NCBI GenBank assembly: GCA_910890315.1
Contig: CAJVGD010000042.1
Span: 682,001-746,000 of the forward strand
DNA length: 64,000 nucleotides
Direction: 5' to 3'
From: Serendipita indica DSM 11827
Taxonomy: Eukaryota > Basidiomycota > Agaricomycetes > Sebacinales > Serendipitaceae
Positions 20,963 to 29,792 of the stretch are shown piece after piece (within the stretch, counting starts at the first letter, position 1; every line of letters begins with the position of its first letter). Under the pieces are notes generated by a model. That model saw only the letters and a list, made by a program, of their open reading frames with translations, ran no database searches and was not told the origin of the DNA. The translations under genes were made by a program, and so were the position numbers.

Positions 20963-23446
20963 ATGGATCCCCGAGAAATGCTGCTCTCGATGGGCTTCGC
21001 TCCTGATCGTGTGGATAGTGAATGGTGTGCTCCTCCTTGACTAGACGGGCTTTAACCTTTGCTATAGGGGCATTAAAAGAGACTCCATAAGATGCCGGCT
21101 TGCAGGCGACGCTCGACCGGCTCATCCAGCACGAAGGCAAAGAGGCTCCCACAGCCAAATCACTTGAAGCTACCAGCAATAAATCGGAAAATATTGACGG
21201 TGATATTCATAGCTACGGTCCAACGGCCTATTCAGCGTCTGCAAACTTGGTAGAACCCAGATTGCAGCCGCAAGCACCTGGATCCACAACCCCCGCTGGA
21301 CTGGCCGAGTCCTTGAATGCTCTTCGACTCCACCAACGTACACTAGACCCTCACTCGCTCTCCATCGAGAACGAGTCTGTAGGTCGGTATGCGCAATTCT
21401 TGGCTGGGAAAGAAGCAAGATTATATCAGCCCATAGTAATCAAGAAACGGCTGGGTTGCTCCTTACTTCTATCTCCAAGTTCTTCAAGGAAGAGCAGACG
21501 AGATGGGAACAGGCTTTGCTACCCTCCAAAGCAGCCTCTTAGAGTGCAGACACCTACCACGAGCCTAACAACCTCAGTGTCGGCAGTTCTTCGAATCAAA
21601 TTCAGCCGCAAGGCGTCAACGAGCGCAGTCATGCCACCAACATGGATAAGACGGAGATGATCCAGAAATCGGCCGTATACGACGCCATCGCTACCTATAA
21701 TTCGACACGTCATATCCTTCCACCTCTTGAGTCGGTCAAGAGACTGCTCGAAGACATGGTCACAAAGTTTACGGAATAAGAGTCGGTGGAGGATGCCCGT
21801 AAGCGTGCAGGAGACGTTTGCGCTCAGATGGAGAAGGTGTCAGACCTCCGTTGGCAAACCACGGTCCCAGGTTCTTCGACCCTCAACTTTCCCTCCTATA
21901 ACATAGACGATATGAACGCACAAGTTATCAATATGGCGGCTAGAGGAGACTATCAAGGTGCTGCACGCTTCGCTTATGATTTCTCGCGAAGAGAAGCAGC
22001 TATGGAAGAGCATCAAATGAGAACTTCTGCGGACGAATATCGACGCAGTTACCTTGATCCTGCGACTGTAGTGGTGAACAAGGCTATCTTGGAATCCCGA
22101 CCGATCTATGCAGAGATACAAGCGTATCTCGAGATTCAAGATAAACAGCTGGATGTAGTGAAGACGATTAGGGCATTGGAGCAGGTCTCATCTAACATTG
22201 AATGTGGGGTGAAGCTGCTGGAGCAACTAGACGACGAGAAGAGCGCACAAGAGTTCGGGCGACGTATCAAGGAAGCCACGAACCGTCAGCAATTCATTGA
22301 AGTGTCACAGGTATGAACGAGCTACACTATAAGCTAATAACTCAAAGTTTTATATAGCTTGAGGATCAGAAAAATGGTCGCGGCTACCAAGTCAATGCGG
22401 TGCGCACCTCTCGAAAGGTTGCACGACGGGCCCCTTTCTTCAACCTTGCGATTTCTCGGATCAACAAAGCTCTCTCTGAAATTGACAAGGATCAATCGGC
22501 TCTCAAAGAGCAATTGAAGGAGCTGTTCAGAACCATTCCCGAGACCATCTCGCTAGACCAGGAGGAAGCTCGTGCCCGGGCGGGTGATACCTCGCCCTCA
22601 AAGATTCCACTCCCAAGCAAGGAACTCTTCAATCAAATATCTGATCTACAGTCATCCGTGGTCTCCATCAACGCTACATCTCTCGATCTACGCTCCCTCA
22701 TGAAGGATCTGCAGCGTCAGCAACTCGAGGAGAGAGCGGAAGATCAAGTGGCCCAGCTCACACTGAGGAAAATACGAGCAGGACGGTTCCTCGGTGTGTA
22801 TGCTGGACCTGTCCGGGAGCTGCAGGACCGAGCAAGCAATGAAATTGCGGAGCTGGAAAGAGCGTTCGATGGGTTCTATCAAAGTGACTTGATGGAAATG
22901 GGCGCAATAATAGGACCAGTAAATGCGTTCATCTCGAGATATAAATCTCGGGAGGCACTCGTTATGCGGAGAATAGGGACTACTGCGGATCCTGCACCAA
23001 GCCCTGCACCATCGAGCTCTCTCGCCGCTCGTAGCACTGGTGCTGCGAATCCAACGATAGAAGGCCTACAGCACCTCTCCCAGCAGCAATATAAAACCGA
23101 ACCAAAGTCATTGGGCGACACCACCTAGCCCTCGTGCGTGCACGTCCTTGTTTCTGATTTCTAATCTATACGCTCCATAGCTTATGCCCAGTATCAACTT
23201 CAGCAAAACCAAAGTCACTGGGCGACTCCGCCTAGTCCCTGTGCGTGCGCAAGTTCCTTGCTTCACTCACTTGTTTCAATAGCCTATGCTCCGTATCAGC
23301 ATCAGCAGCAGTACGCACCGAATCAAAGTCACTGGGCGACTGCACCTAGTCCTCGTGCGTACACGTCTTTCTGGCTTCTGACTACTCACCCACTTGATTC
23401 AGTAGCTTATCCCCAGTACCAACCTTCAACCAACCACTTCTGGTGA
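20963..23446 (+). pseudogene. Decayed copy of the UBA plus coiled-coil gene
   Basis: This region is colinear with the intact gene at 23815-25966, including its promoter, intron positions and coding order. It opens with MDPREMLLSMGFAPDRV, the UBA-like start, and later keeps long near-identical segments such as TIRALEQVSSNIECG and PETISLDQEEARARAGDTSP. Several differences break it: a TAA replaces a Pro codon just after the first intron (about 21091), a single-base frameshift lies near 21410, and an in-frame TAA lies at about 21778. A further one-base insertion near 23095 disturbs the C-terminal repeat. Long frames survive at 21786-22316 and 22400-23128. Decay is probably recent because similarity to the intact copy is high. 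Sequencing error could explain one break, but hardly all of them. Confidence 0.75.
23070..23446 (+). repeat. Tandem exon-intron repeat, about 106-114 nt per unit
   Basis: At the 3' end of the decayed UBA/coiled-coil gene a unit recurs about three times, at roughly 23103, 23209 and 23323 (measured at the shared CAAAGTCAYTGGGCGAC). Each unit contains a small coding block (QYxxQQNQSHWATPPSP type) followed by an intron-like GTGCGT..ATAG segment leading into AYxPYQ or AYPQYQ. The intact neighbour keeps only one partial unit (QQQYTPNQSY-stop). The array therefore copied exon and intron together. Confidence 0.7.
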
Positions 23447-23814: not shown

Positions 23815-25966
23815 ATGGAAGCCCGAGAATCGCTGCTCTCGATGGGCTTTGCTCCTGATCGAGTTGACTGTGCGTAATATATTTCGTCATTGAACTGATT
23901 TCACCGTGATTCGTTCTAGGGGCATTGAGAGAGACGCCACCAGATGCCGACCTACAGGCGAGGGTGGACCATCTCATCCAGCACGAAGGCGAACACGTCC
24001 CAACATCCAAATCACTTGGCGCTGCCGGCAGTAAATCAGAAAAAGTCGCCGGTGATCTATATATCTATAGTCCACCAGCTTATGCGCCGCCTTCAAGCTT
24101 GGCTATTGAACATAAAATCCAGTCGGAACCATCTGGATCTATAACTCCTGCCCAACTGGCCGAGTCCTTGAATGGACTTCGAATTCAAAGACGGACGCCA
24201 GATCCTCTGTCGCTCTCTATCGAGAATGAATCTGTAGCTCGATATGCAGAGTTCTTGTCTGCGGAAAGAGGCAGGATTATAGCGGCTCATAGTAATCAAG
24301 AAATAGCTGAGGATCTCCTCGTTTCTATTTCCAATTTCTTTAATGAAGAGCGGAAAAGGTGGCAACAAGTCTTACACCCCTCCAAACCGACTCCCCAAAG
24401 CGTGAACGCTGATAATAATGCGGGCACTTCATCCAACGGAAATCAGTCACAAGCTTCCAACGAAAATAGACTTTCTACCAATGCAACTGAGGCGGAGATG
24501 GCCCAGAAGTCGGCTGTATATGACGCTATCGCTACCTATGATTCCACACGTCCTCTCCTCCCGCCTCTTGAGTCAGTCAAGAGATTACTCAACGGCATCG
24601 TTACAAAATTTACTGAACGAGAGTCGGTGGAGAATGCCCGCAAGCGTGCGGGGGAAATTTGCACTCAGATGGAGAAGCAGGTGTCGGACCTCCGTTGGCA
24701 AACCACGGTCACAGGTTCTTCGATGTCCAATGAATCTTCTCTTCCTAGTTCGGACGACATGATGTCACAACTGCTCGCTATGCAATCTACAGGAGACTAT
24801 CGAGGCGCTGCGCGCTTCGCTCAGGACTATTCGCGCAGAGAGGCAGCCATGAAGGAACAGCAAATGAGGACTGCAGCAGAAGAATATCGACGCAGCTATC
24901 TTGACCCTGCAACTGCAGCGGTGAACAAGGCCATATCGGAATCCCAGCCCATATACGCTGAGATACAAACTCACCTCGAGAATAACGACAAGCATTTGGA
25001 TGTGGTGAAAACGATCAGGGCATTAGAGCAGGTCTCATCTAACATTGAATGTGGGATGAAGCTGCTGGAGCAACTAGACGACGAGAAGAGCGCACAGGAG
25101 ATCGAACGACGTGTCAAGGAGGCCATGAATCGTCAGCAATTTCGCGAAGCGTCACAGGTATGAGCGAGGGACACTGTAAGCTCGTCGCTGAAACCTTGAT
25201 ACAGCTTGAAACGCAGAAGGTCAGCCGTGTCTACGAAGTTAATGCGGTACGGACATCTCAAAGGGTTGCACGGCGAGCCCATTTCTTCAACCTTGCGATT
25301 TCCCGAATCAACAAAGCACTCTCCGACATAGACAACGACCAATCAGTTCTCAAAGCGCAACTCAAGGAGCTATTAGGGACTATTCCCGAGACTATCTCGC
25401 TAGACCAAGAAGAAGCTCGTGCCCGGGCGGGTGATACCTCGCCATCAAAGATTCCACTCCCAAGCAAGGAACTCTTCAATCAAATATCCGATGCACAGTC
25501 GTCTTTGATCTCGATCAACGCTACAGCTTTTGATCTACGTACCCTTTTGAAAGAAATCCAGCGTCAGCAGGTCGAGGAGAGAGCGGAAAGCGACATGGCA
25601 CAATTCACACTGAGGGAAACGCGGGCAGGTCGATGGACCAATTTGTATGGTGGACCTGGCAAGCAGTTGCGAGACCGAGCAAACAATGAACTTGCAGAGT
25701 TGGAGAGAGCTTTCGACGGGTTCCGTCGAACTGATTTGACGGAACTAGACGCGATTACGGGGCCAGTAAATACTTTCCTCTCTAGGTATAAAGCTCGGGA
25801 AGCACTTGTCATGCAGAGGCTGGCTATGGGAGGTCCCCCGAGTGCTTCACCGACTCCTACATCATCGAGCTATTTCGCCTCCGGTGGTACGGGCGGTGTC
25901 AACCCGACGATACAGGCTTTTCAACGTCTCTTCCAACAGCAATATACGCCGAATCAGAGTTACTGA
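23815..25966 (+). CDS. UBA-like domain plus coiled-coil protein (intact tandem copy)
   Basis: Exons 23815-23869, 23920-25157 and 25205-25966 join in frame to 684 residues; the introns are 50 and 47 nt. Residues 1-25 (MEARESLLSMGFAPDRVDW then ALRETP) have the Met-Gly-Phe loop of a ubiquitin-associated (UBA) domain. The next 200 residues are partly disordered. From about residue 200 most of the protein is predicted coiled coil or helical bundle, for example MEKQVSDLRWQTT, DYSRREAAMKEQQMRTAAEE, VVKTIRALEQVSSNIECGMK and ARARAGDTSPSKIPLPSKEL. The tail is Gln/Ser/Thr-rich and ends NQSY. No enzyme motif, signal peptide or membrane segment is present. The overall family is not recognised; binding of ubiquitin or ubiquitin-like chains is inferred from the UBA motif. 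Confidence 0.82.
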
Positions 25967-26160
25967 GACTCCACGAGTCCTCGTGCGTACACATCCTTCT
26001 TGCTTCTGACCACTAACCACATCCCCCAATAGACCACCCATCAACTTTTCACCTCGATAAATGCATGCTATCTCGTCTATCCTTATGTCAAATCTCTCAT
26101 ATGACCTGCTATTTGAGGTGGGAGCAGAAGAGATTACATTACTCGCACTTGGACGCTACC

Positions 26161-28175
26161 ATGATACCTCGATGGCGGCTCTTTTGTCGTGGCATGAGTA
26201 CGCGAGCAATGTCTCGTGCTTTAGGCGAACCAAAGCAGACAGATCCCGCTTTGGTAGACACGTTTGGGCGCCAGCATAGTTATTTACGAATTTCAATCAC
26301 GGAACGTTGTAATCTTCGATGCACGTATTGTATGCCCGCGGCTGGGATAGAACTTAGCCCTGCATCACATATTCTCAAAACCTCGGAGGTACTTCGTCTA
26401 GCCTCGCTTTTTGTACGCGCAGGCGTGAAGAAAATTCGCCTGACCGGTGGCGAGCCTTCTGTGCGCAAGGATTTGCCAGACATTGTACGAGGCTTGAATA
26501 ACATGAAGAAAGATGGACTAGAGGCGATTGCAATGACAAGCAATGGCGTTGCATTGGGGAGAAAGCTGGAAGACTTGGTCAAGAACGGCCTGACTCATCT
26601 CAACCTGAGGTATGTGAACCTCCTTGGATTTTGAGAGACTGAAGGGGGCCAGTTTGGACACACTAGACCCGTTCAAATTCCAAATACTTACACGACGGCC
26701 GCACTCGATGCATGCCGCTGTCCTATCTACCCTCGACAAAGCGCTCACTTACTTCACCTCACCGACAGCTAATTCATCTCCATCTTTATCTCAAGTCAAG
26801 CTCAACGCTGTCCTTATTCGTGGCCTCAACGACGACGAACTCTTCTCATTTGTCGAGCTCACGCGGTCTTCATCACTCTGCGTTCGATTCATTGAATTCA
26901 TGCCCTTTCAAGGAAACGAATGGGACAAGCACAAGATGGTACCTTCTCGTGAACTGATTCATCGGTTGACGGAACGCCATCCGGGGTTCGCCTCTGTTGT
27001 TGACGAGGGAGGAGATGCAACGGCCAAGCTTTGGCGAGTCCCTGGATACCAGGGAACTGTTGGGTTCATCAGCAGCATGTCCGACCATTTTTGTGCAACT
27101 TGTACCCGCCTGAGGATCACGGCAGATGGGCAGATCAAAGTGGGTTCAGTTACTTTGATTTGATGAAAACATATAACACTCCTATGTATTGACAGGTATG
27201 CCTTTTCGACCCGCATGAAGTTTCCCTCCGTGACATGCTCCGCGAGGGAGCATCGGACGAGGAACTGCTACAAGTCATTCACAAAGCAGTACTCGGTAAG
27301 AAAGCCAAGCATGCTGGGATGAACACGCTCGCCCGTCTTTCAAAAGACGAGGATGGTCTAAAGAATAGAGCAATGATCAAGATCGGGTTGAGTAACTCTT
27401 CTTTCACTCTGAAATCCGCACAACTAATGGATGTATAGGGGGTAGACAGCCACGGAAAAAGACGAGAGCATACAACCACCCCTTCACTTATATACACGCA
27501 ATGACCTGCTCACAAGTCCGATATACTTCAACAACCGCCGTTCATGAGAGTCAGCTCACACATCTCGACGAGATGGGGTCACCACGTATGGTGGACGTCT
27601 CGTCAAAGGATGTGACCAAGCGCAGTGCTACAGCCATTGGCACAATCTATATCAACCAACATGCCTACTCGCTCATTACTGGGCTGGAACCAACTAGTTT
27701 ACAAGCCATATCGACTGCTAAAGATGGTGACAAGCTAACGAACGAAAAGTTGGTGAAGCTCGACAAGCAGCAGCCCGATGAATCGAGGCTGCATGCGATG
27801 GATAAGGCATGGAGAAAGGCTGGCGGTGATGGGAGGAATGTCCTAACCATCGCACAGCTCGCTGGGATTATGGGTGCAAAGTCTACCTCGAACCTGATCC
27901 CTCTGTGTCATCCTCTCCAGTTGTCCCATGTTCACCTCTCACTCGTACCCACCAAAGAGACTTTAGGTGAGGAGAACACAAAGTACGCGATTCGATGCGA
28001 GGCTACTGTGACATGCGAGGGCAAGACGGGTGTAGAAATGGAGGCACTCACGAGTGTTTCTATATCGCTGCTAACGATATGGGATATGCTCAAGGCCGTA
28101 GCGGGACAGGAGATGGCTATTACCGACATCACGCTCGTTCAAAAGGTCGGTGGAAAGTCGGATTTCACCAGATAA
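26161..28175 (+). CDS. MoaA-MoaC (MOCS1/CNX2-CNX3) molybdopterin precursor synthesis protein, two splice forms
   Basis: Exons 26161-26609, 26653-27139, 27196-27386 or 27391, and 27439-28175. The MoaA part is a radical-SAM GTP 3',8-cyclase: TERCNLRCTYCMP holds the CxxxCxxC cluster, RLTGGEPSVRKDLPD binds SAM, and FCATCTRLRITADGQIKVC holds the C-terminal cluster cysteines. The MoaC part makes cyclic pyranopterin monophosphate and carries SPRMVDVSSKDVTKRSATA, KSTSNLIPLCHPLQLSHV and TGVEMEALTSVSISLLTIWD. Donor B at 27392 gives an in-frame fusion of 622 residues. Donor A at 27387 gives a 377-residue MoaA ending IKIGG-stop, leaving MoaC as a downstream frame from ATG 27501. The N-terminus MIPRWRLFCRGMSTRAMSR is Arg-rich without acids, as in a mitochondrial presequence. 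An upstream ATG at 26065 is less likely. Confidence 0.93.
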
Positions 28176-28195: not shown

Positions 28196-29792
28196 TCAAT
28201 CCCACTCGCTACGGGGGTGCGTTGTGTCGAGAAAACGAGAATGCTCTACGTCGACCAAGTAATGCAGAATCTGAGTCAGTGTAAATCCTTGAAGTTTATT
28301 CGTCGTTTGAGTTCCCTCAGCAGGTTCCAATGAGTAGTCAGTTGGAAATAGGAGCGGTTCTCCAGCCATGAACCACGAATGTACCCTCGCTTTCGAAGCG
28401 GATAGTCGTTTGGAAGGAGGGTAGGCTAAGAGGGCCTCGATGAGATTCAAGGGATTCGGGTCGGCTGGTGGGAGGTGTGGCATCAATTTGGCAATGTCTT
28501 GTCGGGGGGCTTGAATAAACTGAATTCCAGCGCCCTCTTGATGTCCAGGGAAGTCCTATAAAGCAAATAGATGTGTGATATTCTCAGACTGAATATGGAC
28601 GCACCGGCCAGGTCTCCTTTGTTGGCGTGCCAAGGACTTTGAAGATGCTCCATAATAAAGCAATTTCACCTCTGCTCGCGTCAAATATAGGGTCTCTTCT
28701 CCATGTTGCATGAGGAGGCACGCCATCTGGCTTGCGAGGAAAGATATACGGCTCAACCTTGAGGATTGGGATGTCTTCTGAGGTCTCACTAGAACTTGTG
28801 GCATTGTCTTCTTCTTCCTCTTGCTCGTCCGTCTGAAGCCTTAATGGGGTGAACAGAGTCGAAAGAGTGATCCCAAGACTCCACAAGTCGGTGGCACATG
28901 CATTATAATGCTTGGGTGTGTACATCAGCTCTGGTGCTCGATAGTGCCTATTAAGGTCAGTGGTCTGTCAAAGATGTGATATAAGCCTACCCAGTGGCAA
29001 TCTGAGCGCACATATCATCAAGGCTCTCTTTCGACTGCTCCACTTCAACGCTTTCCTCGCCAACGATGGAGAAAGGGCTGATAGATGGATCCCATGCAAC
29101 ACCAAAGTCGACCAATTTCAGAATTCCAGTGGTTGTGAGGAGAATGTTTCCAGGGTTGATGTCCCGATGTGCCACTTGGAGGCTATGTATATATTCTGTA
29201 CCAGAAATAAGCTGATATGCTAGCGAGCGCACGACACTGCTGTGCAGCAGCTCCGGAAGTATCGCTGGGAATGGGTTAGGCGTCGATATGTGCAATCCGT
29301 CAGGGAGACTGTGAGATGAGAAGTACGGGTGATCCAAGAGAGTATCGAGAGGGAGCTCGATCATCGCCAGGTGAAGCTCATAGAGCTCCTTTTCGCTGTC
29401 ATAAAAGGCCGAGCGAAGATAGACAATCTGCAAGGATTTAGAGAATTAATTGAAGATTATAATGCCCGTACGTTCGGATGAGATAGTTTCGACAGGATCG
29501 CAGCTTCGTTTCGGATGTTGTGAGGCTTTCTGTACGATATGACATGTGCCGGGACGACCTTGACGGCAAGTACTTCCCCGGGGTCATTAGTGTACACAGC
29601 TCTGTATATACGTGACCCAAAGGGGCGATCTACGATGAGATATTGGACCTAGAGATGTCAGAGTATAACTGCTTGGGGGCGTGGATGCTCACTGCGTCTG
29701 CATACACAGCTGGTTCATAACGAATCTGATCATGTGTCAGTTTTGAATATTTACCAAATTATATGACAGACAATTGCCTGTAGTGTGGACAT
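28196..29792 (-). CDS. CMGC-type protein kinase, Csk1/Cak1-like
   Basis: Several minus-strand exons assemble a kinase of about 450 residues. In order: FGSRIYRAVY (degenerate glycine loop), LAVKVV (ATP-anchoring Lys), NEAAILSKLSHPN (helix C with Glu), VAHRDINPGNILL (catalytic loop; Asn replaces the usual Lys after Asp-Ile), LVDFGVAWD (DFG), TGHYRAPELMY (substrate loop) and TDLWSLGITLSTLF (helix F). All catalytic residues except the HRDxK lysine are present. An acidic insert (EQEEEEDNATSSSETSED) follows helix F. The Asn at the HRDxK position and the GHYRAPEL loop recall CDK-activating kinases of the yeast Cak1/S. pombe Csk1 type, which phosphorylate the CDK T-loop. The first exon (MSTLQAI) and its intron are tentative. 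Confidence 0.75.

Follow-up and report, generated by a model that had tools for sequence, protein, structure and literature searches.

The closest described system to the locus reported here is the nit-7 gene of Neurospora crassa, for which it was reported that the unspliced transcript gives NIT-7A with a Gly-Gly end and the spliced transcript gives NIT-7AB, a fusion whose A part is inactive (PMC7232280). According to the same account, growth required both NIT-7A and NIT-7AB, and NIT-7AB was cut after import, while NIT-7B, when expressed on its own, was not mitochondrial and gave no complementation, the MoaC activity being supplied by the fusion (PMC7232280). Unspliced nit-7 was described as going up under nitrate-inducing conditions (PMC7232280). 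Alternative nit-7 donors 9 nt apart were also described, the removed stretches being 1460-1696 and 1469-1696 and the further variant being not essential (PMC7232280); by our own arithmetic the two stretches are 237 and 228 nt long, both multiples of three, and the non-essential one is the shorter. Close alternative donors can therefore lack function. In human, the bicistronic mRNA was reported to yield only MOCS1A as functional protein, MOCS1B being cut from MOCS1AB (PMC9607355), and in cattle splice types I and II of MOCS1 were reported at the MoaA/MoaC boundary (PMC3034695). An earlier note on this DNA had named only human MOCS1 as precedent. That parallel holds, but from what PMC7232280 describes the nearest precedent is fungal, namely nit-7.

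The MoaA-MoaC gene studied here lies on the + strand at 26161-28175 of the window, the whole 64,000-nt stretch of Serendipita indica DNA that was analysed. MoaA becomes continuous once introns 26610-26652 and 27140-27195 are removed, giving exons at 26161-26609, 26653-27139, 27196-27386 or -27391, and 27439-28175. Upstream ATG codons at 26065 and 26101 are likewise open, so longer MoaA starts are possible. The features are as follows; "GG form" denotes the product with a free C-terminal Gly-Gly.

26161..26609, + strand: MoaA exon 1, with ATG 26161 in context GCTACCATGAT, an Arg-rich N-terminus and the CNLRCTYC radical-SAM motif
26610..26652, + strand: intron 1, GTATGT...CAG, 43 nt; its splicing restores NLSLDTLDP
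26653..27139, + strand: MoaA exon 2, carrying the first two Cys of CX2CX13C
27140..27195, + strand: intron 2, GTGGGT...CAG, 56 nt
27196..27391, + strand: MoaA exon 3, whose last base is 27386 in the GG form and 27391 in the fusion
27387..27438, + strand: GG-form intron, 52 nt, donor GTTGAG, at or near the bottom of the inferred introns
27392..27438, + strand: fusion-form intron, 47 nt, donor GTAACT, mediocre to weak
27387..27445, + strand: alternative intron, 59 nt, the GG-form donor with a later, weak acceptor; 618-aa fusion
27423..27428, + strand: likely branch site ACTAAT; its A (27427) precedes the end of the acceptor AG by 11 nt
27437..27438, + strand: shared acceptor AG (TATAG/G), strong for the genome
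27439..27545, + strand: linker (R)GRQPRKKTRAYNHPFTYIHAMTCSQVRYTSTTAVH, in the MoaC frame in the fusion only; basic, with no Asp or Glu
27439..28175, + strand: MoaC exon, with LCHPL, GVEMEAL, DMLKA and VGGKS motifs and an ATG at 27501
27440..27445, + strand: in the GG form, the second Gly codon (GGG) followed by the stop TAG

The earlier note had claimed that two donors 5 nt apart code for two different products with the acceptor at 27438, and when the junction was translated both reading outcomes were reproduced, the coordinates and the lengths of 377 and 622 residues proving exact to the base. Splicing from donor 27387 (CGG/GTTGAG) to acceptor 27438 gives a protein of 377 aa from ATG 26161 that ends NRAMIKIGG-stop. 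Splicing from donor 27392 (TGA/GTAACT) to the same acceptor gives ...MIKIGLRGRQPRKK... and continues through to the MoaC stop as a fusion of 622 aa, which, as had been stated, is in frame and loses the Gly-Gly. A third route, missed by the earlier note, joins donor 27387 to acceptor 27445 and yields a second in-frame fusion, of 618 aa with its start unchanged at ATG 26161. When the intron is kept the frame runs through KIGLSNSSFTLKSAQLMDV-stop, ending SAQLMDV-stop without GG. A free C-terminal Gly-Gly is found in the GG form only, being missing from both fusion forms and from the retained form, and retention of the intron was on this account ruled out as a source of the GG end. In the GG mRNA the joining of 27385-27386 to 27439-27445 produces GGG GGG TAG, and a +1 shift from this stop enters the MoaC frame. 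Read-through of the TAG was ruled out as a source of the fusion, the frame beyond it not being that of MoaC. The first ATG past the GG stop, at 27501, lies 55 nt downstream in the MoaC frame.

The identity of the two halves as MoaA and MoaC is borne out by profile matches and intact motifs. Pfam families matched by the fusion are Radical_SAM, Mob_synth_C and MoaC. Against TIGR02666 the GG form scores 348.4 bits (cut-off 284.05) and covers positions 1-336 of 336, and the fusion scores 343.4 bits and ends at 335. Both MoaA cluster motifs, CX3CX2C and CX2CX13C, are intact, the latter being found also in 65/66 bacterial frames. The MoaC half scores 141.2 bits against PF01967 (cut-off 27) and 166.3 against NF006870 (cut-off 162); against TIGR00581 it reaches 140.9, slightly below the cut-off of 141.5. 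It carries LCHPL, GVEMEAL, DMLKA and VGGKS, which we take to be the MoaC active-site motifs.

It is the GG end, and not the fusion frame alone, that is the telling part of this junction, because among the 496 GT-AG pairs with a donor in 27200-27420 and an intron length of 40-900 nt a single one ends in GG-stop and 150 reach the MoaC C-terminus. With the first GG fixed and the next exon randomized, Gly-stop followed at P of about 0.003 (20,000 trials). A set of 64 control introns gave 318 alternative isoforms; six of these end in GG-stop (in 3 introns), one of the six doing so within 3 residues of the junction, and from these counts the chance of a GG-stop at one junction is about 1-2%. That another GT lies within 10 nt of the donor is unremarkable by itself, 52 of the 64 control introns showing the same. 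The GG end at the junction is also the canonical one, as had been claimed for donor 27387; it reaches the last TIGR02666 position, and 65/66 closed bacterial MoaA frames end in GG, with Met sixth from the end, as here, in 63/66, although many of the loci come from Curtobacterium and are not independent. These frames were taken from 71 loci in a scan of genome contigs, all bacterial by title, of which 66 had a closed frame. Left out of the count were L067 and L073, where the motif was found in no frame, and L071, L072 and L074, which run off the contig. The single miss, L064, is a shorter frame that ends elsewhere. A scan of viral contigs with MoaC gave one pattern match and no confirmed relatives. 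The GG end is unlikely to be a product of chance, and its fit to the final position of the MoaA model adds weight.

In the assembly, profile searches turned up one locus for MoaA and one for MoaC. With one locus each, an active GG-ended MoaA would have to arise at this junction and MoaC would have to be coded by the 27439-28175 exon. Genes for MoaE and MoCF_biosynth were also found in the assembly by profile search. At G000:C5:1433222-1434855 two MoCF_biosynth matches (L077, L078) each read through one TGA inside the matched part, perhaps an intron. An exon-wise profile search of the assembly with five molybdenum-enzyme families (PF00174, PF02738, PF03404, PF20256 and PF03473) gave no match, which weakens the argument for an obligatory active MoaA. 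Should these enzymes really be lacking, it would be doubtful whether active MoaA is needed; they may be missed by the exon-wise search or fall in assembly gaps. PF00384 did match, in three pieces within about 1 kb, and the frame of the first piece best matches complex I 75-kDa subunits among solved relatives, so that a multi-exon gene can be visible to the exon-wise search.

The surroundings of the gene hold two further features. Upstream of MoaA there is a tandem duplication on the + strand (window 21058-22205 and 23910-25052) of five blocks, 75-79% identical and about 2.85 kb apart; the open frames 22358-23125 and 25049-25966 have near-identical stretches in common, and three frames of the duplicated region gave no match to Pfam. 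Near the MoaC end, frames on the opposite strand occupy window 28196-29445 (- strand), where 28987-29445 matches a protein kinase domain and the other frames read like possible further exons of a kinase gene.

The strength of the splice sites was scored against introns inferred by frame continuity, and not transcript-proven, in 264 kb of the fungus' own genome. The main scoring took introns up to 80 nt, excluded the MoaA-MoaC junction and was run at four settings (100, 100, 98 and 64 introns), in which a bump at 70-80 nt (17, 17, 24 and 5 introns) indicates that some false introns are left. Inferred donors scoring no better than 27387 numbered 0/100, 0/100, 4/98 and 0/64, and those scoring no better than 27392 numbered 22/100, 22/100, 41/98 and 0/64. 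For the acceptors the corresponding counts were 95/100, 95/100, 93/98 and 64/64 for 27438 and 10/100, 13/100, 12/98 and 5/64 for 27445. Donors with G at neither -1 nor +5, like 27392, are found in 5/64 inferred introns, and donors with G at -1 but not at +5, like 27387, in 3/64. Two earlier intron models had been discarded, one of 21 introns whose consensus was not sensible, and another of 418 candidates whose flat length spread pointed to false introns inside open frames; in the latter, donor 27387 was at the 18.9 percentile and donor 27392 at the 29.2 percentile.

Donor and acceptor scores were also summed, using sets obtained at three thresholds (155, 98 and 61 introns) with a length peak at 46-50 nt, a GTGAGT consensus and a remaining tail at 100-120 nt (59, 26 and 15 introns). 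The route 27392-27438 came first with 16.5-18.7 bits, followed by 27387-27438 with 10.4-13.9 and 27387-27445 with 5.0-8.9, in a training that took in the fusion junction and picked 27392-27438 each time. Since an open frame was demanded on both sides, this model was unable to pick the GG form. Intron 2 of the same gene sums to 11.4-12.2 bits, and the GG route is thus within range; as a caution, the acceptor of intron 1 stands only at the 1-7 percentile in these sets, though the frame requires intron 1. ACTAAT was chosen as branch site at two of the three thresholds, the third picking TCTGAA, whose A lies 26 nt upstream of the acceptor end. U1 was searched for in this genome and in 14 control genomes and not found, so that duplex energies were computed with the generally known U1 5' end; they were -6.0 kcal/mol for 27387, -2.7 for 27392, -6.4 for intron 1 and -4.4 for intron 2. 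A cruder count of U1 matches, which tolerates wobbles, was disregarded. The two rankings of the donors conflict, site scores favouring 27392 and duplex energy favouring 27387. The sites are fairly read as two weak donors followed by one strong acceptor, the fusion being the more likely default. Because donor 27387 ranks so low, an even two-way switch is not predicted from the sites alone, and the GG form may be made rarely or not at all.

The linker that the fusion places before MoaC contains 9 K/R and no D/E in 45 residues, which was equalled by 27 of 6,173 overlapping control windows. The best helical moment was 0.51 for the linker, 0.40 for the MoaA N-terminus and 0.29 for the first 40 residues of MoaC started at ATG 27501, which by this one simple measure has no obvious import signal. 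The basic N-terminus of MoaA and the acid-free basic linker are seen in the sequence and may bear on import and cleavage of the fusion. With a basic linker in the fusion, and a lone MoaC without a clear import signal, separate initiation at ATG 27501 is possible and is not needed. It had been argued that in the GG form MoaC would need its own start at this ATG. This does not follow, for MoaC need not be translated from the GG mRNA in the first place: as far as the two accounts go, separate NIT-7B failed in Neurospora and the fusion delivers MoaC (PMC7232280), and the human bicistronic mRNA gives only MOCS1A as functional protein (PMC9607355).

We consider it probable, on balance, that this is one MOCS1/nit-7-type gene in which competing donors 5 nt apart select free MoaA or a MoaA-MoaC fusion. 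MoaA and MoaC lie adjacent in one gene and can be joined in frame, and a GG-stop at the MoaA end through alternative processing is present as coding potential. At the last intron two weak donors would compete for one strong acceptor. Splicing at 27392, the predicted default, would give the fusion. Its MoaA half has no free Gly-Gly and is predicted to be inactive, and the whole protein would enter mitochondria and be cut within the basic linker, so that MoaC is freed. Splicing at 27387 would give free Gly-Gly MoaA, presumably the active GTP 3',8-cyclase, and the choice of donor would then set the MoaA:MoaC ratio. The need of MoaA for a free GG end is taken over by analogy from the reports on Neurospora and cattle. 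We further suggest, quite tentatively, a selected, demand-controlled MoaA:MoaC switch that arose independently of the Neurospora intron retention, with the fusion as default, a linker that hides a MoaC presequence, and nitrate or molybdenum demand favouring the very weak GG donor.

Other explanations of the junction have to be weighed against competing donors. It is conceivable, if unlikely, that donor 27392 alone is meaningfully used and that the GG-stop frame is an ancestral relic, a chance match or splicing noise. Donor 27387 falls below all inferred donors in three of the four sets, a chance GG-stop close to the intron's own junction did turn up in 1/64 control introns, and the exon-wise search found none of the five molybdenum-enzyme families in the assembly; against this, the GG-stop falls exactly at the end of the MoaA family, the pathway genes for MoaE and MoCF_biosynth are retained, and the MoaA half of the fusion was described as inactive in Neurospora (PMC7232280) and in cattle (PMC3034695). 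It was also considered that donor 27387 is always used and that the choice lies between two acceptors 7 nt apart, 27438 giving GG and 27445 giving a fusion. The in-frame 618-aa product agrees with this, but 27445 ranks low and 27438 high among the inferred acceptors, and 27387-27445 has the lowest summed score of the three routes (5.0-8.9 bits), which makes acceptor choice quite improbable. Ribosomal frameshifting by +1 at GGG GGG TAG of the GG mRNA would likewise lead into the MoaC frame and yield a fusion; plain splicing accounts for the same product, and we regard such frameshifting as highly improbable.

The opposite possibility is that only the GG form is spliced, MoaC then coming from a transcript of its own or from reinitiation at ATG 27501. 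The better U1 duplex energy of donor 27387 (-6.0 against -2.7 kcal/mol, with the generally known U1 end) speaks for it, as does the position of ATG 27501, which is only 55 nt from the stop with no other ATG in between. Reinitiation past a 377-codon frame is rarely efficient, however, which we counted against this possibility, and MoaC begun at ATG 27501 lacks an obvious presequence (helical moment 0.29). As for precedents, Agaricomycetes have been reported with polycistronic mRNAs whose genes are also independently transcribed, for the Aspergillus homologue a bicistronic transcript was discussed from which the domains are made separately (cited in PMC7232280), and a human patient with a MOCS1 frameshift was described as having trace MOCS1B through re-initiation (PMC9607355); yet NIT-7B alone was reported as neither mitochondrial nor complementing in Neurospora (PMC7232280). 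Splicing of the GG form alone thus seems improbable to us, and competing donors remain the reading that we prefer.

The kind of system is already known, and a frame-shifting donor pair 5 nt apart would be new if both donors are used. Searches of the open literature, one of them directed at basidiomycetes, gave no such case among the matches listed, and the string 'basidiomycet' is found neither in PMC7232280 nor in the papers listed by the basidiomycete search. As a switch the 5-nt donor pair is tiny and easy to test. Predictors that allow one model per gene would yield one form only, and active MoaA may therefore be missing from fungal annotations.

A two-product logic like that of MOCS1 is supported here, as is the double coding of the junction. 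From the description in PMC7232280, nit-7 resembles the present gene in being a single fungal gene that gives a GG-ended MoaA and a fusion whose A part is inactive, with the intervening intron as the place of the choice, and in having close alternative donors, 9 nt apart there and 5 nt apart here. The two differ in that the Neurospora GG is described as coded in the retained intron, the unspliced mRNA giving MoaA, whereas here the retained form ends SAQLMDV-stop without GG and the GG form needs a frame-changing donor 5 nt upstream. Like the present gene, vertebrate MOCS1 was reported to produce MOCS1A or an A-B fusion by alternative splicing at the boundary, with an inactive A in cattle (PMC9607355, PMC3034695); the human fusion was reported to carry an internal import signal, none having been detected in Neurospora. 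Drosophila Mocs1 was described as giving short (A) and full-length (A-B) proteins via alternative splicing (PMC5817353), a second paper being, in what it states, not certain that the same splicing occurs (PMC8790633). The nit-7 homologue cnxABC of Aspergillus nidulans also holds both domains in one gene but is discussed as a bicistronic transcript with separately translated domains (PMC7232280), and plant CNX2 and CNX3 are reported as the same two enzymes, in mitochondria, but unfused and coded by two separate genes (PMC5791162; two loci also in PMC7232280). The problem common to such systems would be that MoaA requires a free Gly-Gly end and that MoaC must ride on MoaA into mitochondria. If the competing-donor reading is true, then vertebrate alternative splicing, Neurospora intron retention and frame-shifting tandem donors are three routes to the same two products.
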